Shown piece after piece: positions 742-14,838 of a DNA stretch of 14,838 nt (the stretch's first letter is position 1; the number at the start of each line of letters is the position of its first letter). This DNA is from Acinetobacter sp. WCHA55 (GTDB taxonomy: Bacteria > Pseudomonadota > Gammaproteobacteria > Pseudomonadales > Moraxellaceae), in NCBI RefSeq assembly GCF_002165305.2, contig NZ_CP032282.1, forward strand, positions 1-14,838, read 5' to 3'. Below the pieces are notes generated by a model, which saw only the letters and a list, made by a program, of their open reading frames with translations, made no database searches and had not been told where the DNA came from. A program made the position numbers and the translations under genes.

Positions 742-745
742 CCTC

Positions 746-2141: not shown

Positions 2142-2143
2142 AA

Positions 2144-2237: not shown

Positions 2238-2342
2238 TTTAAAGTCTGAAAGCATTGCTAGGCGTGGTTTATAGGGGGGTCTAAAAGCTTTTAAAAGCTT
2301 TTTAAAAGAATAAAAGGGAATTTATTTCCAAAGTGAGTTATT
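2238..2342. other. AT-rich stretch of oriV1
   Basis: After about 40 mixed bases, 2281-2320 is very AT-rich and holds two adjacent AAAAGCTTTT palindromes (2283-2292, 2293-2302). Replicon 2 has a similar stretch with AAAGCTTTTAAA at about 9447-9486, in the same order relative to its iterons. It is the likely unwinding region of the origin. I did not find a convincing DnaA box. Confidence 0.5.
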
Positions 2343-2417
2343 AAAACTGCCCTTGGTACTCGCTAAAGCTCGTACTCTATTGAAGCTCGTTTCACTCGCT
2401 TCGTGGGGGGCAGTTTT
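2343..2417. repeat. 75-bp shared origin-side element, copy 1
   Basis: AAAACTGCCC and GGGCAGTTTT bound this stretch as an inverted repeat. Its core (2355-2391, 37 bp) is identical to the reverse complement of 9382-9418. The inside is rich in CTCGCT and GCTCGT steps. An open frame of 74 codons crosses it, but the strong conservation in non-coding context and lack of protein features argue for a DNA or RNA element. The function is unknown. Confidence 0.75.
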
Positions 2418-2723
2418 TTGCATATATGATCAAGGATTCAAAAAGCAAAACATGAATAATGCATTCGCTATGCTCATGCTTTTTGACGAGCAAAAGCATC
2501 AATACTTCGCTCGTAGACACTCGCTAATCACTGTCCCCAGTAATTCAATAAAAAACGGTTTTTCAGAGGGGGAATAAGCAAACTTTCGTTGTGTCGCTCG
2601 TAGATACTCGCTAAAAGGCTCTCATTTGCGTTCTAAGCGATTTTATTTTTATCAACTATAGTTTTACTGTATTTCTATCAAAAGTCGCTAAAACCCCCGT
2701 TTTTTTGCGCTTAAATGGGATTT
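2418..2723. other. Non-coding region between oriV1 and relaxase 1, with dispersed repeats
   Basis: I see no gene here. Three segments match the region upstream of rep2 in inverted orientation. 2461-2497 is a diverged match to 9278-9314. TCGCTCGTAGACACTCGCT (2507-2525) is identical to the reverse complement of 9155-9173. A third copy, with one base changed, is at 2594-2612. The order of segments is the same in both replicons, so this is a diverged common non-coding region. No terminator with a clear stem and T-run was found for relaxase 1. Confidence 0.6.
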
Positions 2724-4376: not shown

Positions 4377-4392
4377 TTTGCTTTTGCTCTTT

Positions 4393-4430
4393 ATTTCGAT
4401 TTATCGAAATTACCAACATGTATATGTTGG
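4393..4430. promoter_or_regulatory. Two adjacent palindromes just upstream of relaxase 1
   Basis: ATTTCGAT (4393-4400) pairs with 4403-4410 across two bases. CCAACAT (4413-4419) pairs with 4424-4430 across four. They lie 17-54 bases upstream of the relaxase ATG on its template and could be operators or leader hairpins limiting relaxase expression. Replicon 2 lacks them; it has a small zinc-ribbon gene in the corresponding position. Confidence 0.45.
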
Positions 4431-4443
4431 TCAGGGGATTACA

Positions 4444-4500
4444 AAGGGGATTTACCCCTTGTCGCACCATTGGATGAAATCCAATGGCTAAGTGCGCCCT
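4444..4500 (+). other. oriT1, MOBQ type
   Basis: A 9-bp inverted repeat, CCATTGGAT (4467-4475) and ATCCAATGG (4479-4487) around GAA, is followed by TAAGTGCGCCCT (4489-4500). That is the nick region known from RSF1010-type MOBQ origins, where cutting falls between TAAGTG and CGCCCT (here 4494/4495). A second hairpin, AAGGGG/CCCCTT (4444-4460), lies on the relaxase side. The whole layout recurs at oriT2 with a different repeat sequence. Confidence 0.88.
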
Positions 4501-4529
4501 TCGGGAAAACCACGATAGCATGGGCTGTC

Positions 4530-4558
4530 TTGAATTTCAATTCAAACAGACCTATGCT
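4530..4558 (+). promoter_or_regulatory. Promoter of the accessory mobilisation gene 1
   Basis: TTGAAT (4530-4535) and TATGCT (4553-4558) are 17 bp apart, and the ATG is 29 bases further on. The same two boxes with the same 17-bp spacing occur at oriT2, and CACGATAGCAT is also conserved upstream of both. The -35 box lies inside a near-perfect palindrome (TTGAATT-TC-AATTCAA), which may let a relaxosome protein repress the gene. Confidence 0.65.
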
Positions 4559-4587
4559 TGAGGGGGATTCCTTGAGATGGTGATGGT

Positions 4588-4890
4588 ATGAGTGTTGAAA
4601 CTTTAGAGCAAAAAATTGCAAAGCAAGAAGAACGATTAAGACAACTAAAAGCACAAAAACAAGCTATTGCTGCTCGTGAAAAAAAGAAAAATTCTGATCG
4701 ACAAAGAAAAGATGATACTAGACGTAAAATTCTACTGGGAGCTTGGGTTCTAAACAAACTGAAAAATGATGAATCTTTTAAGGGTCAACTAACCGATTTT
4801 GAAAAGTTTTTAAGCACGGAAAGTAAGACTGAAGAAAATAGGCAGAAAGATAAAGATCTTTTTAATGGCGTTATATGGAATAACACCTAA
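4588..4890 (+). CDS. Small mobilisation accessory protein 1 (TraD/MobC-like)
   Basis: This 100-residue basic protein is encoded next to oriT1 and divergently from relaxase 1. Residues 1-45 form a Lys/Glu/Gln-rich coiled coil. It is followed by RKDDTRRKILLGAW (about 41-54), resembling the RK..TR..I.LG signature of small TraD-family relaxosome proteins found beside MOBQ relaxases. Its partner in replicon 2 (10892-11176) shares LKAQKQAI.ARE and RKDDTRRKILLG in the same order, so the two are homologous. The tail (about 70-100) is acidic and not shared. It probably binds oriT DNA or the relaxase; that role comes from family and position, not from a demonstrated motif. Confidence 0.8.
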   Translation: MSVETLEQKIAKQEERLRQLKAQKQAIAAREKKKNSDRQRKDDTRRKILLGAWVLNKLKNDESFKGQLTDFEKFLSTESKTEENRQKDKDLFNGVIWNNT

Positions 4891-4927
4891 ATTTCGCATA
4901 TGAGATTTTGTATTAAATAAAAAAACA

Positions 4928-4947
4928 ATCCCCTAAAAATAGGGGAT
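4928..4947 (-). terminator. Hairpin terminator after yoeB
   Basis: ATCCCCTA and TAGGGGAT form a perfect 8-bp stem around AAAA. On the minus strand the stem is followed by TTGTTTTTTT, a good T-run, so it should end the yefM-yoeB transcript. On the plus strand, after the accessory gene, the following CTTGTT is weaker. It sits between convergent genes. Confidence 0.8.
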
Positions 4948-4951
4948 CTTG

Positions 4952-5215
4952 TTAGTAATGGAATCGACATTGAATTATAGAGATTCGTTCATCTGTCACT
5001 TCATAAACTAATCTATGCTTTTCATCAATCCTACGACTCCAAAATCCTGAAAGATTAGCTTTTAAAGGTTCTGGTTTTCCTGTTCCTTCAAAAGGTGTTC
5101 GCTGACATTCTTTGATTAAGGTATTAATACGCTTAAGTATCTTTTTATCCTGTGTCTGCCAATAGATATATTCATCCCAGGCATTATCAGTCCATTCGAC
5201 GTTACGATTCGTCAT
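4952..5215 (-). CDS. yoeB: YoeB-family mRNA interferase toxin
   Basis: YoeB toxins are RelE-fold RNases that cut mRNA in the ribosomal A site when freed from YefM. Starting at the ATG at 5215 the protein has 87 residues, close to the 84 of E. coli YoeB. RTPFEGTGKPEPLK, NLSGFWSRRI, HRLVY and the final CRFHY match that family closely. The catalytic residues are present: Glu in KPEPLK (E49), Arg in HRLVY (R68) and the penultimate His (H86). An upstream TTG at 5221 would add two residues; the ATG is preferred. The gene overlaps yefM by 14 bp, the usual antitoxin-first order, and is followed by a terminator. It probably stabilises the half-A plasmid. Confidence 0.95.
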   Translation of the reverse strand: MTNRNVEWTDNAWDEYIYWQTQDKKILKRINTLIKECQRTPFEGTGKPEPLKANLSGFWSRRIDEKHRLVYEVTDERISIIQCRFHY

Positions 5216-5465
5216 CCTCAATCAACTCTCTGTGTTTTGTTTTCCCTGCACGTAATTGAGCAATTGATTCATTTAAACGACTTGCATTATTTGGAGATGA
5301 AAGGAGATATAACGTTTCCATTAAGCTATCATAATGATCTTGTCCCATTACTACAGCATGGCCACCTTCTTTTCTTGTAATAAAAGCAACGTCTACATCA
5401 TCAATTACTTTATCTAAAACAGATTTTAAATTGTTACGTGCGTCCGTATATGTAAATACATGCAT
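5202..5465 (-). CDS. yefM: YefM/Axe-family antitoxin
   Basis: This 87-residue antitoxin would neutralise YoeB and repress the operon with it. The Phd/YefM fold is shown by TYTDARNNLKSVLDKV near the N-terminus, ITRKEGGHAVVMGQDHYDSL in the middle, and YLLSSPNNASRLNESI before an acidic tail (ELIEDDES) that would wrap the toxin. I chose the ATG at 5465 because AGGGA lies 8 bases upstream; an ATG at 5480 has no such site and the protein from 5465 aligns with the family. A TGTACA palindrome lies upstream at 5553-5570. The promoter -35 box touches the adjacent pdif site, so the operon sits right at the edge of half A. Confidence 0.95.
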   Translation of the reverse strand: MHVFTYTDARNNLKSVLDKVIDDVDVAFITRKEGGHAVVMGQDHYDSLMETLYLLSSPNNASRLNESIAQLRAGKTKHRELIEDDES

Positions 5466-5512
5466 ATATCTATCCCTCATAGGGTAAGCTGCGTCAAAAC
5501 GCTGCTAGCTAG

Positions 5513-5529
5513 ACTACCTAGGCGGTAGT
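5513..5529. other. Small hairpin in the yefM leader
   Basis: ACTACC (5513-5518) and GGTAGT (5524-5529) pair across five bases, between the promoter and the yefM start. It is a minor stem with no T-run and may be incidental. Confidence 0.3.
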
Positions 5530-5550
5530 GATTGAAACTTTACAATCCTA

Positions 5551-5579
5551 AATGTACAGAATACTGTACATATTGTCAA
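5551..5579 (-). promoter_or_regulatory. yefM-yoeB promoter with TGTACA operator
   Basis: On the minus strand TTGACA (5579-5574) and TACATT (5556-5551) are 17 bp apart. Inside lies a perfect 7-bp palindrome, TGTACAG-AATA-CTGTACA (5553-5570). E. coli YefM is known to bind TGTACA-centred palindromes in its own promoter, so this is a probable operator for YefM-YoeB autorepression. The first base of the -35 box is also the first base of pdif1. Confidence 0.8.
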
Positions 5580-5606
5580 TTTCGTATAACAGCCATTATG
5601 TTAAAT
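5579..5606 (+). other. pdif site 1 (XerC/XerD recombination site)
   Basis: The XerC half ATTTCGTATAA (5579-5589) and the XerD half TTATGTTAAAT (5596-5606) flank the six-base spacer CAGCCA. These are the standard Acinetobacter plasmid pdif half-sites. The 28 bp are identical, in the same orientation, to pdif3 at 13759-13786. Host XerC and XerD act here. Confidence 0.92.
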
Positions 5607-5631
5607 AACTTTTAGAAGCTTTAGTACAAGC

Positions 5632-5659
5632 TTGACAGATTGTCTTATCATTATAAAAT
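5632..5659 (+). promoter_or_regulatory. Promoter of the ABC-F gene
   Basis: TTGACA (5632-5637) and TAAAAT (5654-5659) are 16 bp apart, starting 26 bases inside the pdif module. Transcription would begin near 5666, leaving a leader of about 195 bases before the ABC-F start. Confidence 0.6.
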
Positions 5660-5695
5660 AACCTTATTCAAATCATCCTCCCAAGAGTAACGCCA

Positions 5696-5854
5696 ATGAA
5701 GTAAGTCATTTTCTCATCATTATTTTTAAACTTTTGATGTGCAAAATAGATTCTACTTGTGGCTATATATTCTTGGTCTCTACTTTATATCCTAAATAAT
5801 ATATTGTTTTTTATAAGTTAATCTTCACTATTTTGCATATCCTCTACATGAGGA
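5696..5854 (+). promoter_or_regulatory. Long ABC-F leader with short ORFs and a possible attenuator
   Basis: The leader contains a minimal ORF, Met-Lys-stop at 5696-5704 with AAGAG 8 bases upstream. A 20-codon ORF follows at 5737-5799, without a clear ribosome site. TGCAAAATAG (5740-5749), within the first codons of the 20-codon ORF, is perfectly complementary to CTATTTTGCA (5828-5837), which lies just before the ABC-F ribosome site GAGGA (5850-5854). Several ABC-F resistance genes are controlled by ribosome-mediated attenuation, so such an arrangement is plausible here, but no terminator hairpin is evident. Confidence 0.4.
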
Positions 5855-5861
5855 ATTTTTT

Positions 5862-7430
5862 ATGCAACATGCATGTATTGCTTCAAACTTAAATTTAGAA
5901 TTTTCTACACAGAAAATGTTTGATCAGCTAAACATTACGCTTTTATCAGGACAGGTTTCTGCATTAATTGGACGTAATGGTTTAGGTAAATCCCTATTGT
6001 TCAGAATATTAGATCAAAGCCAAGCTTTAGATATTCATTATAGTGGTCAAGTTTCATGGAATATCCAACATGATTATTTGGCACAATTAGAACGCCTTAA
6101 TGCTGAAAATATTGCACAAGCATTAGAGGTAGATCATTTACATCATGCTTTTCGGCGTATAGAGAACAATACAGCTAGTTTTGATGATTATGAGTTAGTT
6201 GAAAATACCTGGGATTTACCACAAAAATGGCAAAATATACTTGAAAATGCTGACTTACCTACGGATTTGAACTTTCCAACAGAAAAACTGAGTGAAGGAC
6301 AAAAAACAAAGCTGGCTTTATGTCGTTTGTTTTTAAAAAAGGATCACTATCTACTTTTAGATGAACCAAGCAACCATTTAGACTCAACATCTAGACAATG
6401 GTTAATTGAGAGTATTTTGGCACACCCTAGTGGTGTATGCCTGATTAGTCATGATCGCCAATTACTCAATCAAGTCCAACATATTTATGCTTTAACTGAA
6501 TTAGGCTTACAACACTACAAAGGTAATTATGAGCATTACATTCAACAGCATCAGCTACACATGGATGCATTAACTCAGTCTATTAATAATGAGAAAAAAG
6601 AATTAAAGCAGTTAAAACAACGGCAACATGATAGCTTAATGAAAGCGAATAAACGTCAATCTAAAGGCAATGAACTTCGTGATTCTAATTCTCAAGCAAA
6701 GATTTTTCTAGATTTCAAAAAGGAAAATGCTGGACAAAGCTTAGGTAAGCTACGTGCCCAACAAACTCGACAAACTGATGATTTGAAAAATAGTCTGATT
6801 AATAGGCAGACCATTGTAGAAAAAATCAAAGCTCAGAAGTTTGAATTCCACTTACAGAGTACGAAGCAAGGAGAGATTTTAAGAATTTATGATTTAAAGC
6901 TACCCCATACAGCAACAAATAAAATTAATTTTGCATTGAAAGCTGGCGAAAAAATCCATCTTAAAGGTGCTAATGGAATTGGTAAATCAACCTTATTGAA
7001 ATTGATTTCTACCCATCAACGTGATGATATTTTCTTTAGTGGAACATGTTTGTATTTAGATCAAAACTTTAGTTTATTAAATAATGATTTATCCGTAATC
7101 GAAAACCTTGCACTTTATAACTCCAATCTTACTGAAGTTGAGTGGAGAAATTTGTTAGGTCAGTTACGTATTCGTCGTGAAAAAGCTTTATTAAAACTAT
7201 CAGAACTGAGTGGTGGTGAAAAATTGAAAGTCGCATTATTAGCAATGAGTCACTATCCTGATGGTATTGATTTATTATTGCTTGATGAACCAGAAAATCA
7301 TTTAGATATTGAGTCTAGAGAGCTTCTATCGCAGGCTATTAGCCAATATCAGGGCGCTGTAATTTTAGTTTCACATGATCATTTTTTTGTTGAACAGTGT
7401 GAAATATCTGAAGAGTATTTAATTGAGTAA
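5862..7430 (+). CDS. ABC-F family ATPase (ribosome-associated; possible antibiotic resistance)
   Basis: ABC-F proteins have two ATPase domains and no membrane part; they bind the ribosomal E site and act as translation factors or ribosome-protection resistance proteins. This 522-residue protein is complete. NBD1 has Walker A GRNGLGKS (37-44), signature LSEGQ (143-147), Walker B LLLDEP with SNHLD (164-174) and H197. A helical linker of about 205-330 is rich in Lys and Gln. NBD2 has Walker A GANGIGKS (369-376), signature LSGGE (449-453), LLLLDEP with ENHLD (471-482) and H505. The start has GAGGA 7 bases upstream. It is the only gene in a module between inverted pdif sites, the packaging used for resistance genes in Acinetobacter. 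It is not recognisably Msr(E), and the drug class, if any, cannot be read from sequence. Confidence 0.92.
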   Translation: MQHACIASNLNLEFSTQKMFDQLNITLLSGQVSALIGRNGLGKSLLFRILDQSQALDIHYSGQVSWNIQHDYLAQLERLNAENIAQALEVDHLHHAFRRIENNTASFDDYELVENTWDLPQKWQNILENADLPTDLNFPTEKLSEGQKTKLALCRLFLKKDHYLLLDEPSNHLDSTSRQWLIESILAHPSGVCLISHDRQLLNQVQHIYALTELGLQHYKGNYEHYIQQHQLHMDALTQSINNEKKELKQLKQRQHDSLMKANKRQSKGNELRDSNSQAKIFLDFKKENAGQSLGKLRAQQTRQTDDLKNSLINRQTIVEKIKAQKFEFHLQSTKQGEILRIYDLKLPHTATNKINFALKAGEKIHLKGANGIGKSTLLKLISTHQRDDIFFSGTCLYLDQNFSLLNNDLSVIENLALYNSNLTEVEWRNLLGQLRIRREKALLKLSELSGGEKLKVALLAMSHYPDGIDLLLLDEPENHLDIESRELLSQAISQYQGAVILVSHDHFFVEQCEISEEYLIE

Positions 7431-7470
7431 AATGACATTTTCAAATATATAGATTTATTAGTTCTACTAA

Positions 7471-7498
7471 AATTAACATAATACACCTTATACGAAAT
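7471..7498 (-). other. pdif site 2, inverted, different spacer
   Basis: On the minus strand this reads XerC half ATTTCGTATAA (7498-7488), spacer GGTGTA, and XerD half TTATGTTAATT (7481-7471). It is inverted relative to pdif1 and pdif3 and its spacer differs from theirs at most positions. It marks the right edge of the ABC-F module. Confidence 0.92.
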
Positions 7499-7503
7499 GC
7501 TTT

Positions 7504-8985
7504 TGTAACTCCAAAATAGAAATGTCCGGTTTCTCCAAAGTAAAAATGTCCGCTTTTAGAATATGCACTTCTGCAATTTCCTTAGCGGACGGTTTGATAT
7601 GTTGGTGTCTATGTCGGATAAAGAACTTAAACGATTGTCGGTCTTGCAGGAAATCTGCGATCAACGCATAACTCAATCCCAGGCTGCTCAGCTACTTCAT
7701 ATTTCAGAACGTCAGATCAGACGCTTACTGCAGAAATACAAAGCTCAAGGTCCATCTGCATTAGCCCATGCCGGTCGTGGCCAAATCAGCAATTCTAAAC
7801 TTCCTGAAGAACTCAGACTCAAGTGCCTCAATATTGTTTCTGACCAACTGCATGGTTTCGGACCCACTTTAGCGCATGAAAAGCTTACCACCGTACATGG
7901 ATTCGATCTTTCAGTAGAAACCCTGCGTTCTTGGATGATTGCAGCTGACTTATGGATGCCTAGATCCAAGCGCCTGAAACGACCGTATCAGCCTCGTTAC
8001 AACCGGGATTGCTTTGGTGAACTGATCCAAATTGATGGCTCACACCATGACTGGTTTGAAGGACGCGCTGCTAAATGCTGTCTGCTGGTGTTTATCGATG
8101 ATGCTACAGGAAAATTGCAGCATTTACGCTTCTGTGAGTCAGAATCAACCTTTGACTATATGATTTCAACACGCTTATATGTCGAACAGCACGGTAAGCC
8201 TTTAGCGTTTTACAGCGACAAACATTCAGTCTTTAGAGTGAATCAAAGCAGCAAGAAAGACACCAAGATTACCCAGTTTGGACGTGTACTCAGCACCCTG
8301 AATATCGATATCATCTTCGCTAATTCACCGCAGGCCAAAGGCCGTGTGGAACGGGCCAACAGAACCCTTCAGGACCGTCTGATCAAGGAGATGCGCCTGA
8401 AAGGCATCTGTTCGATTGAGCAAGCTAATGTCTGGCTACCCTGCTTCATTGAGGAGTTCAATCAGAAGTTCGCCAAGATGGCTTTTAATCCTAAGAATCT
8501 ACATCGGTCTATCACTGAAACAGCCGAAGAATTAGATGATATTTTTACTTGGCGTGAACCCCGCAGAGTCACGAATAGTCTGACGATTACTTATGATAAA
8601 TGCGTATATCTCCTGGAAAACACCGAAGAAAATCAAAGGTTGATCGGTAAGTATCTTGAGTTCCTTGAATACCCGGATGGTACTGTAGCCATCATGCATA
8701 ATAGCCGAAAGATCAATTACAGCCTCTTCGATAAATTAAGTCAGCTGAATCAGCGAGAGATTGTTGAGAATAAACGGTTGGGTGCTGTTCTGAATCATAT
8801 CCAACAACAGCATGAAGAACTGGAACAGCAAAACAAACGTAATCGTTCTCAAAAGATGCCAAGCAGACGTGCACAGAAAACAGCAATTCAAGAACGAAAT
8901 CTAAATCCTGTGCTTGACTTGGAAATGTCCATATAGGACATTTCTATTTGGTTATTAGGTAGGACATTTCTACTTAGGAATAACA
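7504..8985 (+). mobile_element. IS1202/ISNCY-like insertion sequence next to pdif2
   Basis: This 1,482-bp element has 24-bp terminal inverted repeats matching at 20 of 24 bases: IRL 7504-7527 begins TGTAACTCC and IRR 8985-8962 begins TGTTATTCC, both ending TAGAAATGTCC. Each end has a second, inner AAATGTCC motif about 20 bp further in. A perfect 5-bp target duplication, GCTTT, flanks it (7499-7503 and 8986-8990). The left copy abuts the XerC end of pdif2. One transposase gene is inside. The complete ends, duplication and intact gene suggest a recent, functional insertion. Confidence 0.9.
7599..8936 (+). CDS. IS1202/ISNCY-like DDE transposase
   Basis: This transposase moves the surrounding element. 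From the ATG at 7599 it has 445 residues; an ATG at 7563 would add 12 without a ribosome site, while GGACGG lies 6 bases before 7599. An N-terminal helix-turn-helix is clear (TQSQAAQLLHISERQIRRLL, about residues 25-44). A second DNA-binding region contains FGPTLAHEKL and LSVETLRSWM. The rve-type catalytic triad is D146 (in QIDGSHHDWF), D207 (in YSDKHSVF) and E251 (in GRVERANRTLQDRL). The C-terminal tail is basic and Gln-rich. The gene stops inside the inner repeat of the right end. The sequence resembles transposases named ISNCY or IS1202; IS481 is a more distant alternative. Confidence 0.92.
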   Translation: MLVSMSDKELKRLSVLQEICDQRITQSQAAQLLHISERQIRRLLQKYKAQGPSALAHAGRGQISNSKLPEELRLKCLNIVSDQLHGFGPTLAHEKLTTVHGFDLSVETLRSWMIAADLWMPRSKRLKRPYQPRYNRDCFGELIQIDGSHHDWFEGRAAKCCLLVFIDDATGKLQHLRFCESESTFDYMISTRLYVEQHGKPLAFYSDKHSVFRVNQSSKKDTKITQFGRVLSTLNIDIIFANSPQAKGRVERANRTLQDRLIKEMRLKGICSIEQANVWLPCFIEEFNQKFAKMAFNPKNLHRSITETAEELDDIFTWREPRRVTNSLTITYDKCVYLLENTEENQRLIGKYLEFLEYPDGTVAIMHNSRKINYSLFDKLSQLNQREIVENKRLGAVLNHIQQQHEELEQQNKRNRSQKMPSRRAQKTAIQERNLNPVLDLEMSI

Positions 8986-9031
8986 GCTTTATAATTATCC
9001 TTATAATTCAACGCTGTAGTTTCTAGTTGAT

Positions 9032-9060
9032 AGCCCGAACATCACTGTTCGGGCTTTTTT
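9032..9060 (+). terminator. Strong rho-independent terminator
   Basis: AGCCCGAACA (9032-9041) and TGTTCGGGCT (9046-9055) form a perfect 10-bp stem around TCAC, followed by TTTTTT. It lies 47 bp beyond the IS1202-like element. Before that insertion it would have followed pdif2 closely, and it now shields the rep2 region from transcripts of the transposase. Confidence 0.93.
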
Positions 9061-9090
9061 AATGATTTGTCACGTTCCACGCCTACTATT

Positions 9091-9116
9091 TAATCAATGT
9101 TTCACAACTTTGATTA
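9091..9116. repeat. 26-bp dyad element, copy 2
   Basis: TAATCAA and TTGATTA arms flank TGTTTCACAACT. The element matches 746-771 at 23 of 26 positions in the same window orientation. A related GTTCCACG lies just upstream at about 9074. Confidence 0.6.
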
Positions 9117-9359
9117 GCTCAATTAAATAATTAAAACCTAGATAATAAGAACCGAGCGAGTGTCTACGAGCGATTGAGCATCATCAAAATTTCGCCCTCG
9201 CCTTTTCTCTGATTACAAGCTCCCTTTCGATTTTAAACGGTAGGTACAGAGCATCCCGAATGGGTGCGAACTTTGGAGCTTTTGCTTTTCAAAAAGTATG
9301 AGCGAAGCGAATACATTACCAATATTTTTGCTTTTAGATTTCACAAATAGGATTACCCA
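9117..9359. other. Non-coding region upstream of oriV2, with repeats shared with replicon 1
   Basis: No gene is visible. The reverse complement of 9155-9173 is identical to 2507-2525, and 9278-9314 is a diverged inverted match to 2461-2497. Between them lies about 100 bp that replicon 1 lacks. The segments run in the same order relative to the rep gene in both replicons. Confidence 0.6.
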
Positions 9360-9429
9360 AAAACTGCCCCACGAAGCGAGGAACGAGCTTCAATAGAGTA
9401 CGAGCTTTAGCGAGTACCTAGGGCAGTTT
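9360..9429. repeat. Shared origin-side element, copy 2
   Basis: This 70-bp stretch is bounded by AAAACTGCCC and GGGCAGTTT. It contains the 37-bp core 9382-9418, which is the exact reverse complement of 2355-2391. It is inverted in the window but has the same orientation relative to its own iterons and rep gene. It is followed by an AT-rich stretch with AAAGCTTTTAAA (about 9447-9486). Confidence 0.75.
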
Positions 9430-9522
9430 GCACTCCCCTCTCGAAAGGCTTTTAATTATTTTTAAAGCTTTTAAATGCTTTTAGATAAGCTGAAAACATT
9501 GATATTAGAGGACTACAGCTTA

Positions 9523-9610
9523 TATAAGCACACAAATTCTCTTGTATAAGCACACAAATTCTCTTGTATAAGCACACAAATTCTCTTGTATAAGCACACA
9601 AATTCTCTTG
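9523..9610. repeat. Iterons of replicon 2 (oriV2)
   Basis: Four perfect tandem copies of a 22-bp unit occupy 9523-9544, 9545-9566, 9567-9588 and 9589-9610. Each begins TATAAGCACAC and ends ATTCTCTTG. With 22-bp spacing all copies lie on one helix face. They bear no resemblance to the replicon 1 iterons, so the two initiators should not cross-react. They are the expected Rep2 binding sites. Confidence 0.95.
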
Positions 9611-9666
9611 ATTTACACACATAAAATATATAGTGTGTAAATACACATTAATAATAACGTGTATTT
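9611..9666. promoter_or_regulatory. Two dyads between iterons and rep2 (probable operator)
   Basis: ATTTACACAC (9611-9620) pairs with GTGTGTAAAT (9633-9642), and AAATACAC (9639-9646) pairs with GTGTATTT (9659-9666). The second arm ends 3 bases before the rep2 ATG, and no ribosome site is visible. The dyads probably bind Rep2 dimers for autorepression, and an RNA stem here could also hide the start. Confidence 0.6.
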
Positions 9667-9669
9667 AAT

Positions 9670-10602
9670 ATGAAGAATGGTTTAGTTGTGAAAGATAATG
9701 CATTAATAAACGCCAGTTATAATTTAGAACTAACGGAACAGCGTTTAGTCATGCTTGCAATCATTAATGCAAGGGAATTAGGGCGGGGTATTACGGCAGA
9801 TAGCAAACTAGAAATACATGCTAGTGACTATGCAAAACTATTTAATGTATCACCTGATGCATCCTACAAAGCCCTGAAAGATGCCGTAAATAATCTATTT
9901 AACAGGCAGTTTAGCTATACAGCCGAATATAAAAAAACAGGGAAGGTAGGTATCGTTCGCTCTCGCTGGGTAAGCCGTATTTTTTATGTAGATGATTTGG
10001 CATTACTAGAAATTACTTTCGCACCTGATGTAGTTCCTTTAATCACTAGATTAGAAGAACACTTTACAAAATATGAAGCCAAACAAGTTGCACACCTAAC
10101 CAGTAAGTATGCTACTAGACTTTATGAGTTATTAATCGCTTGGCGTGAAGTTGGTAAAACACCTGTTTTTGAACTACAACAATTACGTAAAAATTTAGGT
10201 GTTGAAGATGATGAATATCAACGTATGCACCATTTTAAAAGCCGTGTATTAGAAACTGCCATTACTCAAATCAATGAACATACAGACATAAAAGCCACTT
10301 ATGAGCAACACAAGAAAGGGCGTACAATTACTGGGTTTTCATTCAAGTTTAAGCAGAAACAACAACCGAAAAAATTAGATTCTAAGCGTGACCCAAACAC
10401 ACCTGACTTTTTTATCAAAATGACCGATGCACAACGCCATTTATTTGCAAAAAAAATGTCAGAAATGCCTGAAATGGGGAAATATTCACAAGGTACAGAA
10501 AGCTACCAACAATTTGCTATTCGTATCGCTGATATGCTTTTAGAGCCTGAAAAATTCAGAGAGCTTTATCCAATTTTAGAAAAATCAGGATTTCAGCCAT
10601 GA
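9670..10602 (+). CDS. repB: Rep_3-family replication initiator, replicon 2
   Basis: This 310-residue initiator acts on the four 22-bp iterons immediately upstream. The N-terminal winged-helix domain carries the family hallmark NLELTEQRLVMLAI (about residues 18-31), VSPDASYKALKDAV and RSRWVS. The second winged helix contains LTSKYATRLYELL, FKSRVLETAITQINEHTDI and KKGRTITGFSFKF (about 140-240). A Lys-rich link then leads to the C-terminal DPNTPDFF and GFQP. Length and layout are normal for Acinetobacter RepB proteins. The ATG at 9670 lacks a clear ribosome site and lies just after a dyad. The stop overlaps the next gene by 4 bp. It is a distant homologue of the replicon 1 initiator. Confidence 0.96.
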   Translation: MKNGLVVKDNALINASYNLELTEQRLVMLAIINARELGRGITADSKLEIHASDYAKLFNVSPDASYKALKDAVNNLFNRQFSYTAEYKKTGKVGIVRSRWVSRIFYVDDLALLEITFAPDVVPLITRLEEHFTKYEAKQVAHLTSKYATRLYELLIAWREVGKTPVFELQQLRKNLGVEDDEYQRMHHFKSRVLETAITQINEHTDIKATYEQHKKGRTITGFSFKFKQKQQPKKLDSKRDPNTPDFFIKMTDAQRHLFAKKMSEMPEMGKYSQGTESYQQFAIRIADMLLEPEKFRELYPILEKSGFQP

Positions 10603-10895
10603 TTAAATTAAATAACCTATCAACCGATCTAAAGCATGTGACCGTTGAATACCTCGACATCGTAAATTATGAAATTGCGAGGGAAAATATATGCGGTTAT
10701 ATCTTCCTATTATCCCGACTATCCAAAGATGCCGAACCCACCGAAAAAATGCAGATGGAAAGCAAAATACAGAACTTAATTTACTATCGGGATAATTTAC
10801 AAATCGAGGACAAGGACAATATTCAAAAGGTTTTAAATACGCTCATTCCAGAGTATCAAGCCGAACAAAACAACCAAACAGCTAAGAAAAATTAG
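10599..10895 (+). CDS. Small protein, second gene of the rep2 operon
   Basis: This 98-residue protein overlaps rep2 by 4 bp (ATGA), so it is made from the rep2 transcript by coupled translation. I do not recognise its family. It appears wholly helical, with YLDIVNYEIARENICGYIFL near residues 18-37 and amphipathic stretches to residue 85, and ends in a polar Gln/Lys-rich tail. No DNA-binding motif or membrane segment is evident. Its stop overlaps the stop of the convergent accessory gene by 4 bp. By analogy with the similarly placed but dissimilar 95-residue product of replicon 1, it may tune replication, but nothing in the sequence proves that. Confidence 0.75.
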   Translation: MIKLNNLSTDLKHVTVEYLDIVNYEIARENICGYIFLLSRLSKDAEPTEKMQMESKIQNLIYYRDNLQIEDKDNIQKVLNTLIPEYQAEQNNQTAKKN

Positions 10896-11176
10896 GCTTC
10901 AATATCGGGCAAATCAAAAAGCTGTCGATCTCTATTTTCTGTTAAATATTCGTTGAGTTCAGCGAGTATTTTTTCTTTATTGGCTTCATTTGCCTGCATT
11001 TTCTTAATCAAGTAAGAACCGAGCAAAATTTTACGCCTAGTATCATCCTTGCGCTCCTGTTCTTTCTTTTTGGTACGTTCTCTTGCTTCAATAGCCTGTT
11101 TCTGTGCTTTTAACTGTTTCAGCTTCTCTAACTGGGCTTCAATTTTCTTTTCGATATTTTCAGCAGATTTAGTCAT
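10892..11176 (-). CDS. Small mobilisation accessory protein 2 (TraD/MobC-like)
   Basis: This 94-residue basic protein is homologous to the product of 4588-4890: both have an N-terminal coiled coil with LKAQKQAI.ARE, then RKDDTRRKILLG (about residues 45-56). It lies beside oriT2 and is divergent from the relaxase 2 operon, the same layout as half A. I placed the start at the ATG at 11176. A GTG at 11206 would extend the frame, but it lies almost on the -10 box and upstream of the expected transcript start. The protein probably binds oriT2 or relaxase 2 in the relaxosome. The acidic tail (LFDLPDIEA) differs from the other copy, which may contribute to partner choice. Confidence 0.82.
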   Translation of the reverse strand: MTKSAENIEKKIEAQLEKLKQLKAQKQAIEARERTKKKEQERKDDTRRKILLGSYLIKKMQANEANKEKILAELNEYLTENRDRQLFDLPDIEA

Positions 11177-11209
11177 AACGGTTAATTTCGGAATATAGAA
11201 AACCACTCA

Positions 11210-11238
11210 AGCATAAGACCCTATGAATTGAAATTCAA
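11210..11238 (-). promoter_or_regulatory. Promoter of the accessory mobilisation gene 2
   Basis: On the minus strand TTGAAT (11238-11233) and TATGCT (11215-11210) are 17 bp apart, identical in boxes and spacing to the promoter at 4530-4558. The shared palindrome TTGAATT-TC-AATTCA covers the -35 box, and CACGATAGCAT is again conserved upstream. The start codon at 11176 is 33 bases downstream. Confidence 0.65.
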
Positions 11239-11270
11239 GCGGGTAATATGCTATCGTGTTTTTCATGAAA

Positions 11271-11330
11271 TGCGCACTTACGACTTGAATTTCATTCAAG
11301 TCAAAAGATGCGTAAGGGGGACACCCCTTA
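11271..11330 (-). other. oriT2, MOBQ type
   Basis: On the minus strand a perfect 9-bp inverted repeat, GACTTGAAT and ATTCAAGTC around GAA (11302-11282), is followed by TAAGTGCGCA (11280-11271). The expected nick is between 11275 and 11274. A TAAGGGG/CCCCTTA hairpin (11313-11330) lies on the relaxase side, as at oriT1. The loop GAA and the TAAGTGCGC core are shared with oriT1 but the stem sequence is not. Confidence 0.85.
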
Positions 11331-11363
11331 ACCCCAAAAGCAAAAGCAAGAGCGGTAAAGCAA

Positions 11364-11540
11364 ATGAAGAAATACAATATTGATGAACAGCATATTTTTA
11401 TATGCTCAAACTGTGGGAATGAATTTTTATACAAATTACCTAAAATTCTTATAGAGCAAATGAATGGAGTATCCATTCAAACTATTAGAAAAGAATGCCC
11501 GAAATGTAATCAATACGTGGATGCCACAAGGAAAATTTAA
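11364..11540 (+). CDS. Small zinc-ribbon protein coupled to relaxase 2
   Basis: This 58-residue gene lies between oriT2 and relaxase 2. Two Cys pairs, C14-x2-C17 (in FICSNCGNEF) and C45-x2-C48 (in KECPKCNQYV), are spaced as in a zinc ribbon. The stop codon shares a base with the relaxase ATG (TAATG at 11538-11542), a coupling signal that supports real translation. The ribosome site is weak (AGCGG about 11 bases upstream). Half A has no counterpart. It might bind DNA near oriT2 or regulate relaxase synthesis; the family is not identified and the role is inferred from position only. Confidence 0.7.
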   Translation: MKKYNIDEQHIFICSNCGNEFLYKLPKILIEQMNGVSIQTIRKECPKCNQYVDATRKI

Positions 11541-12511
11541 TGGCGATTTACCACTGTACAACCAAAACCGTTAACCGCAGTTCGGGAAGAACTGCCGTTG
11601 CATCTATGGCTTATCGTGCAGGGGAAAAACTCAAAGATGAACGAACAGGACTAACCCACGATTTTACGAGAAAGGATGGTGTCGCCCATAGCGAAATTGT
11701 GTCTAACCTTGATATAGAAATAGACCGTAGCGAATTGTGGAACTTGGCGGAACAGTCCGAAAACCGCAAAGATGCTCGAACTGCTAGAGAATGGGTCATT
11801 GCCCTACCTGATGAATTAGACGCTGATCAACGTAAGGACTTGGCAAAAGAGTTTGCTCAATCACTTGTTGATCGCTATGGCGTGATCGCAGATTTAGCCA
11901 TTCACGAACCCAGCAAAGGCGGAAATGATAAAAACCATCACGCCCATATCATGCTGACCACCCGAAAAGCTGAATTAGACCCTGACAATAAACTCACTTT
12001 GACGACAAAAACCGATATTGAGTTAAGTAATGCCAAACGCAAAAGCCTAAATATGGGAACAACCCAAGACGACATCAAACAGATTCGGGAAACATGGGCG
12101 GACTTAGCCAATCACGCACTGGAGCGAGCAGGCTACCGAGAAAAAATAGACCACCGCAGCTATGCCGATCAGAACAATGGACTACAAGCCACCATTCATG
12201 AGGGGACTTCGGTCACTCAACTCCGTAGACAAGGCATAGACACCGAAATCAGCCGTTATAACGACCATGTGAAGCAACACAACGCCCAACACCTCAAACA
12301 ACAGCAACAGCGCACAGACAGCGTTTTACAGCGTGGTTTAAACCGTGCCGAGCAAGGCTTCGAGCAATGGCAGAAAAACCAAGAAGCTAAACGCCTAGAA
12401 CAAGAACGCCAAGCCGAAATACAACGACAGCAAAAACTAGAGCAACAGCAAGCCGAGCGAGCCAACCGTAAAGCATCACAAGACTTAGATCAGGGCGGAA
12501 TGTACCGATGA
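11540..12511 (+). CDS. mobA: MobA/MobL-family relaxase 2 (MOBQ type)
   Basis: This 323-residue relaxase should nick oriT2. It starts MAIYHCTTKT, has the catalytic Tyr candidate Y25 (in SMAYRAGEK), and carries the metal-binding His set H122 (in AIHEPS) and H134/H136 (in NHHAHIMLTTR). DHRSYADQ (about residue 204) and the ATIHEG...LRRQGI block are also shared with relaxase 1. The two proteins are clear homologues through about residue 235 and differ after it. Here only a short Gln/Arg-rich coiled coil follows, so this version lacks the extra 230 residues of relaxase 1. It is coupled to the zinc-ribbon gene upstream (TAATG) and overlaps the membrane-protein gene downstream by 4 bp. Confidence 0.95.
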   Translation: MAIYHCTTKTVNRSSGRTAVASMAYRAGEKLKDERTGLTHDFTRKDGVAHSEIVSNLDIEIDRSELWNLAEQSENRKDARTAREWVIALPDELDADQRKDLAKEFAQSLVDRYGVIADLAIHEPSKGGNDKNHHAHIMLTTRKAELDPDNKLTLTTKTDIELSNAKRKSLNMGTTQDDIKQIRETWADLANHALERAGYREKIDHRSYADQNNGLQATIHEGTSVTQLRRQGIDTEISRYNDHVKQHNAQHLKQQQQRTDSVLQRGLNRAEQGFEQWQKNQEAKRLEQERQAEIQRQQKLEQQQAERANRKASQDLDQGGMYR

Positions 12512-12978
12512 GCAACCAAAACGACCTAGATGACCAGCTCTATATTTTACTGGCATCTATGAAAGAGTATCGAGAAGCCATAGCAGACGATAACAAGCGA
12601 TTAGAAGCGTTTTACAAGGAAGTGGCTAGCGGAGTACTCAATAAGACCGAAAAACACCTAAAAAACGCCAATCAGAAGCAAATAGACGCACTCAACAACA
12701 GTATTCGGGAATTAAACAATGCAACCAATCAACTTGACTGGCGATTCATGGCAATCTACGCCAGTGCTTTTGTTAGCTTGCTGATCGTTTTCTTTTTAGC
12801 ATTATTTTTATATGTGCCGAGCATGGACGAAATCAAACAGCGTAGAGCAGACGTTGCATGGCTAGAACAAAAATACAGCCTAGATATTAAAAATTGCAAT
12901 GGGAAGTCTTGCGTTCGCATCATGAAAAATGACTGTCACGGAGCGAATAAGGATTATTGTGTGATTGACCCAAAATAA
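12508..12978 (+). CDS. Membrane-anchored coiled-coil protein of the mob2 operon
   Basis: This 156-residue protein follows relaxase 2 with a 4-bp overlap (ATGA). Residues about 1-75 are polar and helical and look like a coiled coil. A single strong membrane segment follows, AIYASAFVSLLIVFFLALFL (about 82-101). The C-terminal part has four Cys (in KNCNGKSCVRI and NDCHGANKDYC), consistent with disulphides if it faces the periplasm. I cannot name the family. MOBQ and ColE1-type mobilisation operons often include a small membrane-associated helper such as MobB or MbeB, so it may connect the relaxosome to the host conjugation channel. Half A has no equivalent gene. Confidence 0.78.
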   Translation: MSNQNDLDDQLYILLASMKEYREAIADDNKRLEAFYKEVASGVLNKTEKHLKNANQKQIDALNNSIRELNNATNQLDWRFMAIYASAFVSLLIVFFLALFLYVPSMDEIKQRRADVAWLEQKYSLDIKNCNGKSCVRIMKNDCHGANKDYCVIDPK

Positions 12979-13047
12979 TGATTAGACAGTACTTTGCTCG
13001 GCTCTTGCCATCACCGAATCAATGACAGCAGTCGCAAAGTTGCCCGA

Positions 13048-13079
13048 CTTTGAAACATGGCTAAAGCCATCTTTCAAAG
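13048..13079. other. Long hairpin between the mob2 operon and yafQ
   Basis: CTTTGAAACATGGCT (13048-13062) pairs with AGCCATCTTTCAAAG (13065-13079) around AA, with 14 of 15 positions matching. There is no T-run on either side. CAAAGT (13035-13040) could pair instead with ACTTTG (13047-13052). It lies between convergent genes and may stop transcripts with help from Rho, or be a protein site. Confidence 0.5.
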
Positions 13080-13092
13080 CATCGAGCGATAG

Positions 13093-13374
13093 TCATCCAA
13101 AAATTTCGGAATGGCTATCCAACTGATGCAGTTCTAAAATATCGTCACCAACAAGCCTATAGATCAAGACTAAATCAGGCTTCACATGACAATCACGACA
13201 ATTTTTAAACTCTGCACCACCTTTCAAGGGATGATCTAAATACTTTTCAGGCAAAGGATTATTTGCGACTAAACAATCTAATACTTCTGCCCATTCAGCC
13301 GTAACCAGTTCTAAATAACGTCTTTTAATATCACGTTTAAAAGAACTGGTTACGATAATCTTACGTTTAGCCAT
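13093..13374 (-). CDS. yafQ: YafQ-family mRNA interferase toxin
   Basis: YafQ toxins are RelE-fold RNases that cut mRNA on the ribosome in frame with codons. This 93-residue protein is normal length (E. coli YafQ has 92). The family core is clear: YLDHPLKGG, CRDCHVKPDLVLIYRL and the C-terminal SHSEIFG. Likely catalytic residues are H48, H63, D67, H88 and F92, matching the reported E. coli set. It overlaps the upstream antitoxin gene by 8 bp. The convergent mob2 operon ends 114 bp away. It is the addiction module of half B, as YoeB is of half A. Confidence 0.94.
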   Translation of the reverse strand: MAKRKIIVTSSFKRDIKRRYLELVTAEWAEVLDCLVANNPLPEKYLDHPLKGGAEFKNCRDCHVKPDLVLIYRLVGDDILELHQLDSHSEIFG

Positions 13375-13660
13375 GTGCTTCTTCCGACATAGCTTTAATC
13401 GCTTCTTCTACCGTTTCGTACTCGGTGTACTCGCCATTTTCAATCTCTTTTAAAGATTGAAGTAACTTGGCTGCTGCTTTAGGAGTTAAAGCAGGTTCTC
13501 GTGCATAGTCAAAAGACAAAGGAATCGCTTTAGTTTTAACGATTTGATTCAAGAACAGTTTGAATGCTTGAGGCATAGTCAAACCATAGTCTTCCAAAAT
13601 TGGGGTGACTTGTTCTTTTAACTCTGCTTCTAAGCGCATATTGAAATTGACTGCGGACAT
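13367..13660 (-). CDS. dinJ: RelB/DinJ-family antitoxin
   Basis: This 97-residue antitoxin would bind YafQ and repress the operon. The ribbon-helix-helix N-terminus is evident (SAVNFNMRLEAELKEQV, then GLTMPQAFKLFLNQIV), followed by AIPLSFDYAREP, which is characteristic of RelB/DinJ, and an acidic helical tail for toxin binding. I chose the ATG at 13660, preceded by GAGGGA. A TTG at 13675 would add five residues that the family does not have. A dyad upstream at 13684-13718 is a likely operator. The promoter region ends about 40 bp from pdif3, so this operon marks the edge of half B. Confidence 0.94.
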   Translation of the reverse strand: MSAVNFNMRLEAELKEQVTPILEDYGLTMPQAFKLFLNQIVKTKAIPLSFDYAREPALTPKAAAKLLQSLKEIENGEYTEYETVEEAIKAMSEEAHG

Positions 13661-13683
13661 GATTCCCTCACTCAAAAACCATT

Positions 13684-13718
13684 AAAGTAAAGATAATATA
13701 AGTCATATTCTTTACTTT
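13684..13718. promoter_or_regulatory. Dyad upstream of dinJ (probable operator)
   Basis: AAAGTAAAGA and TCTTTACTTT form a 10-bp inverted repeat, with TAATAT and ATAT continuing the symmetry inward. It lies about 25-60 bases upstream of the dinJ ATG. RelB/DinJ ribbon-helix-helix proteins bind dyads in their own promoters. A clear -35/-10 pair was not resolved. Confidence 0.55.
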
Positions 13719-13758
13719 TTCATTACTTTTGATGTAATAAATGGTTTCTGACAACTGA

Positions 13759-13786
13759 ATTTCGTATAACAGCCATTATGTTAAAT
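13759..13786 (+). other. pdif site 3, direct repeat of pdif1
   Basis: All 28 bases, including the spacer CAGCCA (13770-13775), equal those of pdif1, in the same orientation; one further base on the left also matches. Flanking sequences differ immediately beyond. The last six bases hold the stop codon of the cysteine hydrolase gene on the opposite strand. Confidence 0.92.
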
Positions 13787-14260
13787 CATCGTATTAGAAG
13801 ATAAATTTTCAGATGTAGTAATTGATCTAAAATGATGTTTCCAAAGTTGAATTCCTAAATTTCCACTTCGATCTAAAGAAGAACCTACAGTTAAATCTGT
13901 AACTAAGCAGGGGAAAAGACCAGCATCAAATAATCTAAAACCAGCAGCAAGAACACACGTATCCGTTTGGATACCACATACATAAACTTGTTGAGTATCT
14001 AAACCTTTCAAATACTGAATCAAGTCATCTGTTGGAGAATATCCATACTTAATAAATACTTTCTCTACTTTTAGTGGACATTCATCAAATTCCGATGGAG
14101 CCCAATTTAGCTGGCTTTTGAAGGGAACTATTGATTCATCATGTAGTTCTATAGTCGCGATTGAATGAACCGAAGGCAGCAATTTTTCTAATTTTTGTAT
14201 TAACCAGTTAGGAGGATTAAAAGTTGATTGAACATCAATTATTAACAGGACTGGTTTCAT
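13781..14260 (-). CDS. Isochorismatase-like cysteine hydrolase
   Basis: This 159-residue enzyme belongs to the cysteine hydrolase (isochorismatase/nicotinamidase-like) superfamily. The triad is visible: D9 in LLIIDVQ, K71 in VFIKYGYS, and C102 in GIQTDTCVLAA. Members hydrolyse amides or isochorismate; the substrate cannot be read here. It is a little shorter than the usual 180-200 residues and lacks obvious metal ligands of nicotinamidases. The start is the ATG at 14260; a TTG at 14272 would add four residues. No ribosome site is clear. Its stop codon lies inside pdif3, so the 3' end is defined by the recombination site. The IS3 element begins 48 bp upstream, which may have separated the gene from its promoter. 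Confidence 0.85.
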   Translation of the reverse strand: MKPVLLIIDVQSTFNPPNWLIQKLEKLLPSVHSIATIELHDESIVPFKSQLNWAPSEFDECPLKVEKVFIKYGYSPTDDLIQYLKGLDTQQVYVCGIQTDTCVLAAGFRLFDAGLFPCLVTDLTVGSSLDRSGNLGIQLWKHHFRSITTSENLSSNTMI

Positions 14261-14390
14261 AAATAATAACAAATTAGTTTTAGTAAATTGATTTTATCAA
14301 AGAGAGATGGATCCGTAAATTTGAACAACTCCTATAAGTGATATTCTGCTCCTCAAATGATGTTATAAACATCAATATATGGAGTATTTT

Positions 14391-14696
14391 ATGGCACGTA
14401 GACCAAGAAGAAATCATTCAAATGATTTTAAAGCTAAGGTAGCACTTGCTGCGATTAAAGCAGAAAAAACACTTGCTGAATTGAGTGCTGAGTTTGATGT
14501 TCATCAAAACCAAATTATTGACTGGAAAAATCAATTGATCTCAGCTTCCTCGCAAGCTTTCGATCAATCAAAAGCTCCAACAGAACCACCCATCGATCTA
14601 AAAAAACTACATGCAAAAATCGGTGAGCAGGCATTAGAAATTGATTTTTTAGAAGGTGTGTTGAAGAAACTGGGCCGCTTCAACCACAAAAGTTAA
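14391..14696 (+). CDS. IS3-family transposase OrfA
   Basis: This 101-residue DNA-binding subunit recognises the element ends. It has the HTH_Tnp_1 type helix-turn-helix (FKAKVALAAIKAEKTLAELSAEF with the recognition helix at about NQIIDWKNQL), then a leucine-zipper-like helix (KLHAKIGEQALEIDFLEGVL) for multimer formation. I chose the ATG at 14391 because GGAG lies 6 bases upstream; an ATG at 14379 overlaps that ribosome site. The heptamer T TTT TTA at codons near residues 85-87 lies in frame for -1 slippage into orfB, about 45 bases before the stop. OrfA alone typically inhibits transposition, and the OrfAB fusion promotes it. Confidence 0.93.
   Translation: MARRPRRNHSNDFKAKVALAAIKAEKTLAELSAEFDVHQNQIIDWKNQLISASSQAFDQSKAPTEPPIDLKKLHAKIGEQALEIDFLEGVLKKLGRFNHKS
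14645..14687 (+). promoter_or_regulatory. Programmed -1 frameshift signal of the IS3 element
   Basis: T TTT TTA (14645-14651) is a canonical slippery heptamer in the correct orfA frame. After an 8-base gap, GTTGAAG (14660-14666) pairs with CTTCAAC (14678-14684), and the stem can extend by TG/CA past a bulged C. After slippage the next codon is AGA at 14651, which enters the orfB frame. Confidence 0.72.
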
Positions 14697-14838
14697 TCGA
14701 CGACTCACTTCAGATTTCAGTATCTAAGCAAGCTAAGCTGCTGAAAGTCTCCCGTGGTTGTTATTACTATCGCCCAAAACCTGTGAGTGCATCAGATCTG
14801 AAGCTGATGCGATGTATTGATGAATTACATATGCAATA
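14651..14838 (+). CDS. IS3-family transposase OrfB, N-terminal part
   Basis: In the -1 frame relative to orfA, translation gives RRCVEETGPLQPQK, then VSKQAKLLKVSRGCYYYRP, a conserved OrfB start region in this family, and MRCIDELHMQY at the window end. The next residues, encoded from base 2, are PFAGSRMMRDLL, which is the normal continuation. There is no good independent start codon, so OrfB is probably made as an OrfAB fusion. Confidence 0.88.

Follow-up and report, generated by a model that had tools for sequence, protein, structure and literature searches.

A 14.8-kb Acinetobacter plasmid as a probable cointegrate of two mobilisable plasmids joined at a matched pair of CAGCCA pdif sites

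How did two Rep_3 replication initiators, identified with Pfam, come to lie on different arcs of one small circle? This question is raised by a plasmid of Acinetobacter sp. WCHA55 (NZ_CP032282.1), analysed here over its whole length of 14,838 bp (hereafter the window). The window is the entire contig C3 of a host genome assembled in 7 contigs (3.97 Mb, one contig of 3.4 Mb). An orfB of the IS3 family runs in frame across the join of position 14838 to position 1, and this join was aligned unbroken, at 99.9-100% identity, in all six copies of the insertion sequence (IS) fetched from elsewhere in the genome (the genome has more copies than these six). Because orfB and all six copies read straight through the join, the plasmid is very probably closed. 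With high confidence, we attribute it to one XerC/D crossover between two Rep_3/MOBQ mobilisable circles. A cointegrate of two mobilisable plasmids had been proposed in the original prediction, which was made from the letters of the window, and this origin is now supported by separate relatives, reciprocal junctions and boundaries at the recombination site.

The sites in question are pdif sites, composed of a XerC arm, a 6-bp spacer and a XerD arm. The 28-mer ATTTCGTATAA-CAGCCA-TTATGTTAAAT was found exactly twice in the window, both times on the plus strand, which bears out the predicted pair of identical direct repeats with the spacer CAGCCA; at up to three mismatches, it occurred 0 times in 200 dinucleotide-preserving shuffles of the window. 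The repeat identity really extends over 29 bp (5578-5606 and 13758-13786), and this 29-bp site is the sole direct exact match of at least 14 bp between the two arcs. The pair splits the circle exactly into half A (8,180 bp, 5607-13786) and half B (6,658 bp, 13787-5606), both predicted sizes being exact on recomputation. Two sites beyond this pair, pdif2 and pdif0, were also found.
5579-5606, plus strand: pdif1, with XerC arm ATTTCGTATAA, spacer CAGCCA and XerD arm TTATGTTAAAT; hybrid junction of YoeB side and ABC-F side
13759-13786, plus strand: pdif3, identical to pdif1; hybrid junction of RelB side and cysteine-hydrolase side
7471-7498, minus strand: pdif2, with spacer GGTGTA; inverted relative to pdif1 and pdif3
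4891-4918, plus strand: pdif0, degenerate, ATTTCGCATAT-GAGATT-TTGTATTAAAT
5607-13786: half A, 8,180 bp, equal to plasmid pAT205-1 (6,693 bp) plus an IS of 1,482 bp and a 5-bp target site duplication (TSD)
1-5606: half B, first stretch; 6,658 bp in total with 13787-14838
13787-14838: half B, second stretch, the rest of this half

We compared the 150-bp arms on each side of every NTTTCGTATAA-6-TTATGTTAAAT site in the window and 13 other sequences. The RelB side was followed by the ABC-F side in pAT205-1 and three pBDT2044-4 units with the spacer CAGCCA (100/100% for the two arms), in three pBDT2091-5 units with CCGCCA (100/100) and in pYUSHP14-2 with TCGCCA (82/100). The YoeB side was followed by the cysteine-hydrolase side, always with CAGCCA and at 99-100% on both sides, in p2_010030, p4_010060, pAYTCM-6, one locus elsewhere in the genus set (G024:C2) and the four scored pAcsw19-3 units. 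The window carries the two reciprocal pairings, YoeB with ABC-F (junction 1) and RelB with cysteine hydrolase (junction 3). Further, the YoeB side adjoined a third kind of module in pYH12207-8 (CCGCCA) and pAYTCM-8 (CAGCCA), the cysteine-hydrolase side was joined to another left side on host contig C6 (CAGCCA), and none of the four arms matched at the sites with GCTCTA or CGCCCA spacers. Boundaries lying off the pdif, which the prediction had named as a result that would speak against it, were not observed: right up to the site, the arms were 99-100% identical to their separate relatives, the background for unrelated arms being 53-64%. On these alignments, the exchange point is confined to the 29 shared bases, and both A/B borders are a bare pdif with no transposable element.

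Of 31 plasmid records matching junction 1, one had its hybrid form, and junction 3 was spanned in none of the 52 plasmid records that matched it, in a search where a match interrupted by the record start would appear as two places. Among the matches listed for 175 genomes of the genus (in E-value order, with the sole full-length match on top), junction 3 was spanned in one, the plasmid's own genome; these matches also included the RelB arm running through the site in at least eight other genomes (94-100%) and the site with the cysteine-hydrolase arm in at least four others. A 52-mer across junction 3 gave 0 matches in a wider collection of genome contigs, from which the own genome was possibly left out.

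Half A exists as a separate plasmid. The Acinetobacter towneri plasmid pAT205-1 (NZ_CP048016.1, 6,693 bp) aligns over its whole length to half A with a single mismatch (in a block of 1,897 bp; a second block, of 4,801 bp, has none), and removal of the IS and its TSD from half A leaves 8,180 - 1,482 - 5 = 6,693 bp, exactly the length of pAT205-1. The IS in question is as follows.
7504-8985, plus strand: IS1202-family (ISAjo2-type) IS, 1,482 bp, transposase at 7563-8936
It is flanked by the TSD GCTTT (7499-7503 and 8986-8990), with pAT205-1 lacking the IS; it begins 5 bp from the XerC arm of pdif2, and NCBIfam assigns its transposase to ISNCY. The ISAjo2 group of the IS1202 family has been described as elements of about 1.5 kb that encode transposases of 441-457 aa, generate a 5-bp TSD and target pdif (Harmer 2023, PMC10132070). 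The window IS, with 1,482 bp and a 457-aa ISNCY transposase, is alike in size, transposase length, 5-bp TSD and 5-bp distance to the pdif XerC arm, an assignment made by traits against the family description rather than one named IS.

For half B, the stretch 743-5606 (IS3 edge, rep, mob, YoeB and pdif) matched pAYTCM-8 (NZ_CP121784.1, 6,289 bp) over 4,864 bp with 1 mismatch, the pdif of pAYTCM-8 opening into a different module, and it matched five units of pAcsw19-3 at 99.5-99.98%, the best unit with 1 mismatch. The cysteine-hydrolase arm (519 bp) had 0 mismatches in p2_010030 and pAYTCM-6; in pAcsw19-3 it had one mismatch in four of the five units, one of them with an additional gap, and in the fifth it was matched only from position 38, with one mismatch and gaps. 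The backbone or junction of half B was thus found apart from A in pAYTCM-8, pAcsw19-3, p2_010030, p4_010060 and pAYTCM-6. At the alignment sensitivity used, half A appears in these five records only as patches of up to 203 bp at 80-83% (and not at all in pAYTCM-6), and three A-type records (pAT205-1, CP094250.1 and CP094839.1) carry half B only in patches of up to 181 bp at 80-81%. The two halves could have turned out always to travel together; they do not, the separate records of either kind carrying only such short patches of low identity.

Two observations concern the relatives themselves. CP094250.1 (three units), CP094839.1 (three) and NZ_CP043310.1 (five) are apparent head-to-tail multimers of pdif plasmids, either genuine or produced in assembly; for NZ_CP043310.1, indels that distinguish its units suggest an artefact. 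For dimerisation of Rep_3 plasmids, the authors of PMC11705084 knew of no earlier report. We used the multimer records only for sequence adjacency, never for copy state. The second is that p4_010060 (NZ_CP031712.1, 12.3 kb, two rep and two MobQ genes) carries GAGATT sites at 23 and 7015 that divide it into 6,992 and 5,281 bp, the smaller part matching NZ_CP133716.1 (5,281 bp) in size, and that both of its backbones match the window MobQ region at 99% or more. It is possibly a second cointegrate, whose fusion could have used pdif or homologous recombination across the mob region common to its backbones; we dropped it as an independent pdif cointegrate because homologous recombination explains it as well.

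In the proposed event, parent A would be a pAT205-1-type circle with the order RelB/YafQ side, CAGCCA pdif, ABC-F side, and parent B would have a pAYTCM-8-type backbone with the order YoeB side, CAGCCA pdif, cysteine-hydrolase side. A single conservative XerC/XerD crossover would join the two circles, each with one 28-bp CAGCCA pdif, and strand exchange at the spacer would swap the right-hand partners and leave two directly repeated hybrid sites. XerC/D would be the agent of this fusion, and the two parents were presumably compatible. In a profile search, the host XerD scored over its family cut-off, and the best XerC candidate reached 318.6 against a cut-off of 335.15, a threshold that only 2 of 14 control genomes pass. 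The host also has a dif-like site at C7:1675479 with the spacer TGTATA, the same as that reported for the dif of A. baumannii (PMC10132070). Such low divergence from the separate relatives (1 mismatch over 6,693 bp for half A and 1 over 4,864 bp for half B) points to a recent fusion. The same CAGCCA pair may be able to resolve it. The equilibrium of fusion and parts raised in the prediction is a possibility on which the literature is divided: same-spacer pairs both fused and resolved in PMC5790767 and PMC9947245, and PMC11705084 speaks against easy reversal. When the own assembly was searched with both backbones, no second high-identity copy of either was found, a search in which free circles A or B would stay hidden, sharing all their sequence with the fused form.

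Several observations weigh against this origin or against its easy reversal. The separate 6.8-kb plasmid pHZE30-1-7 also carries junction 1 (YoeB-pdif-ABC-F, 99/100, CAGCCA), and for this reason we rejected junction 1 alone as proof of fusion. Contig C6 (372 kb) of the same host is a possible alternative source of the cysteine-hydrolase module, its CAGCCA pdif (359699-359726) being followed by the same module over 546 bp at 100%. The pAT205-1 record is labelled linear; its ends meet inside the continuous 4,801-bp match to half A. The database search suggested with the prediction returned half A as a separate 6,693-bp plasmid but not an exact 6,658-bp circle B, nor was an IS-less circle of 5,376 bp found among the plasmid records searched, and the nearest separate B plasmids bear different or extra modules. 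Activity of CAGCCA with CAGCCA was not met in the literature searched, a coverage with most subscription journals outside it. Finally, PMC11705084 calls intramolecular recombination inefficient and saw no deletion in pK50b between the same-spacer direct repeats that flank relBE, so that reversal of the fusion is not assured.

These points bear first on a stepwise shuffling of dif modules, in which separate pdif events brought the A backbone into a B-type plasmid with YoeB-pdif-ABC-F and supplied the cysteine-hydrolase module from C6. Such a course draws on the presence of junction 1 in pHZE30-1-7, on the cysteine-hydrolase module beside a CAGCCA pdif in the own genome, and on the other modules that the YoeB-side site meets in pYH12207-8 and pAYTCM-8, exchange at this site being common. 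However, it requires two or more events where one is enough, both parental pairings are extant with 99-100% arms, and half A is found end to end in pAT205-1 with its single mismatch, as insertion of a whole circle predicts. We therefore regard stepwise shuffling as improbable. Still less probable is an assembly chimera of two circles misjoined at the shared 28 bp. The pdif is indeed the only direct sequence of at least 14 bp that they share, and several related records are head-to-tail multimers, so that assembly of small plasmids may be error-prone here; against this, the 7 contigs, including that of 3.4 Mb despite many near-identical IS3 copies, suggest long reads, for which 28 bp is no repeat problem, and the assembly holds no second high-identity backbone copy. 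Fusion by homologous recombination or replicative transposition, to which an IS in each half and common rep-upstream and oriT-like segments (about 66-81%) might point, was rejected on the junction sequences as hardly credible, because the shared segments are inverted and away from the boundaries, the only direct identity of at least 14 bp is the 29-bp site with no longer shared stretch at the borders, and each IS is single-copy in the window with neither at the A/B borders, where transpositional fusion would leave an element (as argued in PMC5790767).

Given a fusion by one crossover, the way in which half B departs from its relatives is of interest. An IS3-family element lies across the join of the window.
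14303-14838, plus strand: IS3-family IS, left part; orfA at 14379-14696, orfB crossing the contig join
1-746, plus strand: IS3-family IS, right part, in the place of the sequence with the inverted GGTGTA pdif in relatives
This copy (14303-746) measures 1,282 bp, its ends being set by the extent of the match to two other genome copies, and no exact 3-bp target duplication was found at the ends so defined. On its left side, it cuts the cysteine-hydrolase module, which extends to further pdif sites in p2_010030, p4_010060, pAcsw19-3, pAYTCM-6 and C6. On its right side, the B homology begins at 743; relatives have an inverted GGTGTA pdif 130 bp before that point (pdif and homology start at 1296/1426 in pAYTCM-8, 16940/17070 in pAcsw19-3 and 8018/8148 in p4_010060). 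Scanning the window for pdif gave no inverted site on the left side of half B, where the IS3 stands. Since the relatives keep the GGTGTA site 130 bp beyond position 743, a deletion next to the IS most likely removed it from half B. The IS3-family element is present in many genome copies, two of the six fetched being fully identical over 1,282 bp, and these identical copies point to an element that was probably active in this host recently.

In half A, pdif1 and pdif2 enclose the ABC-F module, a D module, and pdif2 and pdif3 enclose the half A backbone, a C module under the naming rule of PMC13141974; the backbone has the layout of such a module, with pdif2 and pdif3 inverted and the XerC sites inside. 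A cointegrate of A with an undeleted B would hold a second direct same-spacer pair, made up of the GGTGTA site and pdif2, and resolution at this pair would pass the ABC-F module to the B backbone. PMC11705084 and PMC13141974 credit Balalovski and Grainge with proposing a two-step exchange of this kind. The layout of such an exchange product is shown by pHZE30-1-7, but its rep region is only 77% identical. We suggest tentatively, and with less than even confidence, that the plasmid is a module-exchange intermediate with one exit closed and the CAGCCA pair as its sole way out. If so, the lost second exit may help to explain why the fused form was assembled, and IS-linked loss of an alternative exit suggests a route by which fusions could become fixed.

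Contig C6 also carries two identical same-strand GGTGTA pdif (351152-351179 and 362597-362624), 11.4 kb apart and identical to pdif2, which form a further potential recombination set in the same genome, and the window plasmid could in principle fuse with C6 too. Beside the ABC-F module, the spacer varies (CAGCCA in pAT205-1, pBDT2044-4 and pHZE30-1-7, CCGCCA in pBDT2091-5 and TCGCCA in pYUSHP14-2) and the module-side 150 bp is 100% (rounded) in all five, as would be the case if recombination of mismatched sites had been followed by exchange or mutation of spacers. As for pdif0, sites at its level of degeneracy (4 mismatches) arose at 0.05 per first-order random copy of the window (20 copies), and the match of several records to the window stops at 4918-4920, that is, at pdif0.

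The gene content of the two halves was then annotated. Half B comprises the following.
787-1074, minus strand: open reading frame (ORF) downstream of rep, by position at orfX; no NCBIfam hit
1071-2012, minus strand: Rep_3 replication initiator (Pfam)
2133-2237: iterons with 22-bp spacing, repeat family D2
2724-4376, minus strand: MobA/MobL (MOBQ) relaxase (Pfam)
4470-4570: putative oriT-like region, conserved with half A, inverted pairs I3 and I4
4588-4890, plus strand: putative mobilisation accessory ORF, by position; no NCBIfam hit
4952-5209, minus strand: YoeB toxin (Pfam)
5202-5480, minus strand: Phd/YefM antitoxin (Pfam)
13781-14257, minus strand: cysteine hydrolase family protein, named from annotated relatives; no NCBIfam hit
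The 3' end of the last ORF (13781-13786) falls within the XerD arm of pdif3. Half A, besides its IS, comprises the following.
5862-7430, plus strand: ABC-F protein of the accessory module; best NCBIfam model 310.6 bits, under its cut-off of 380
9519-9606: iterons, 22-bp, repeat family D1
9670-10602, plus strand: Rep_3 initiator (Pfam), RepM
10599-10895, plus strand: ORF downstream of rep, by position at orfX; no NCBIfam hit
10892-11176, minus strand: mobilisation accessory ORF, a hypothetical protein in pAT205-1 and a mobilization protein in CP094839.1
11198-11299: putative oriT-like region, conserved with half B, inverted pairs I3 and I4
11540-12511, plus strand: MobA/MobL (MOBQ) relaxase (Pfam)
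13093-13374, minus strand: YafQ toxin (Pfam)
13367-13660, minus strand: RelB/DinJ antitoxin (Pfam)

As predicted, each half has one rep gene, one iteron set, one relaxase and one toxin-antitoxin pair, which were found by Pfam and repeat analysis. The 22-bp iterons of each half have a sequence of their own and lie upstream of its Rep_3 gene, and the differing iterons and initiators fit two compatible replicons. The prediction of one oriT and one accessory gene per half held in part, in that an oriT-like block and an ORF were placed in each, both as putative features. The oriT-like blocks adjoin the relaxase gene and are conserved between A and B in inverted orientation (I3 79%, I4 81%). An ORF sits at the orfX position in both halves by placement only, NCBIfam being silent, and neither the accessory ORFs nor the ORFs downstream of rep in either half gave an NCBIfam hit. 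A related third MobQ-type plasmid sequence was observed on host contig C4 (about 17-5624), which is 76-78% identical to half A where rep and the relaxase are encoded and 97% identical along 415 bp around the oriT-like region. This likeness raises the possibility that a single relaxase might act on more than one plasmid in the host.

The plasmid belongs to an established class, the pdif cointegrates with two rep backbones known in Acinetobacter, which have been published in this genus in PMC5790767, PMC9947245, PMC11705084 and PMC13141974. Fusions were shown experimentally in 2018 and 2023 (PMC5790767 and PMC9947245, both with resolution) and in 2025 (PMC11705084); in 2026, eleven r3-T5 cointegrates, of one rep type, were annotated in a paper that also cites older cases (PMC13141974). 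Such cointegrates are a proposed vehicle for gene swaps among Acinetobacter plasmids, including resistance modules (PMC11705084, PMC13141974).

One close experimental counterpart is pAb242_37, a cointegrate of pAb242_25 and pAb242_12 (Cameranesi 2018, PMC5790767; Giacone 2023, PMC9947245). Like the window, it is fused at one pXerC/D pair of identical spacer with polarity kept, and it was shown to resolve; unlike the window, its spacer is GGTGTA rather than CAGCCA and its cargo is carbapenem and aminoglycoside resistance. Site C4/D4 of pAb242_25 equals the window 28-mer letter for letter (Table 1 in the work on that plasmid). Fusion of C4/D4 with a CGCCCA site was inferred there, with no reversal seen. 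For this 28-mer, which Giacone et al. took to have fused with a mismatched spacer, the window provides a CAGCCA x CAGCCA combination, and this matched pair is a clean test of the spacer rule. In the literature searched, again with most subscription journals outside its coverage, no fusion at a matched CAGCCA pair was encountered.

The r3-T5 cointegrates (Ambrose, Xiao and Hall 2026, PMC13141974) likewise hold two Rep_3/OrfX backbones in one plasmid, a likeness in layout. A direct same-spacer pdif pair is present in 8 of their 10 types, and one has a reported simple plasmid with matching modules. They differ in that CAGCCA was not found in the main text of PMC13141974, and in that one partner of the window plasmid is matched over its whole length.

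In strain AYE, cointegrates of p1ABAYE and p2ABAYE are XerC-dependent and amount to 0.1-1% at steady state (Blanchais 2025, PMC11705084). A relative of half B, p1ABAYE shares its YoeB module and, at the equivalent position, a pdif whose spacer CCGCCA is one base from CAGCCA; p1ABAYE also has a GAGATT site identical to pdif0. The CCGCCA site appears to correspond to xrs66 and the GAGATT site to xrs107, which was reported as poorly recognised, with no recombination observed (PMC11705084). In AYE the separate plasmids dominate, whereas the assembled form of the window plasmid is the fusion. A match along the entire circle for one partner, and as far as the crossover for the other, allows the event to be placed within 29 bp. 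Set beside these systems, the plasmid is a well-documented addition to a known class, and the lost second exit is its modest extra.

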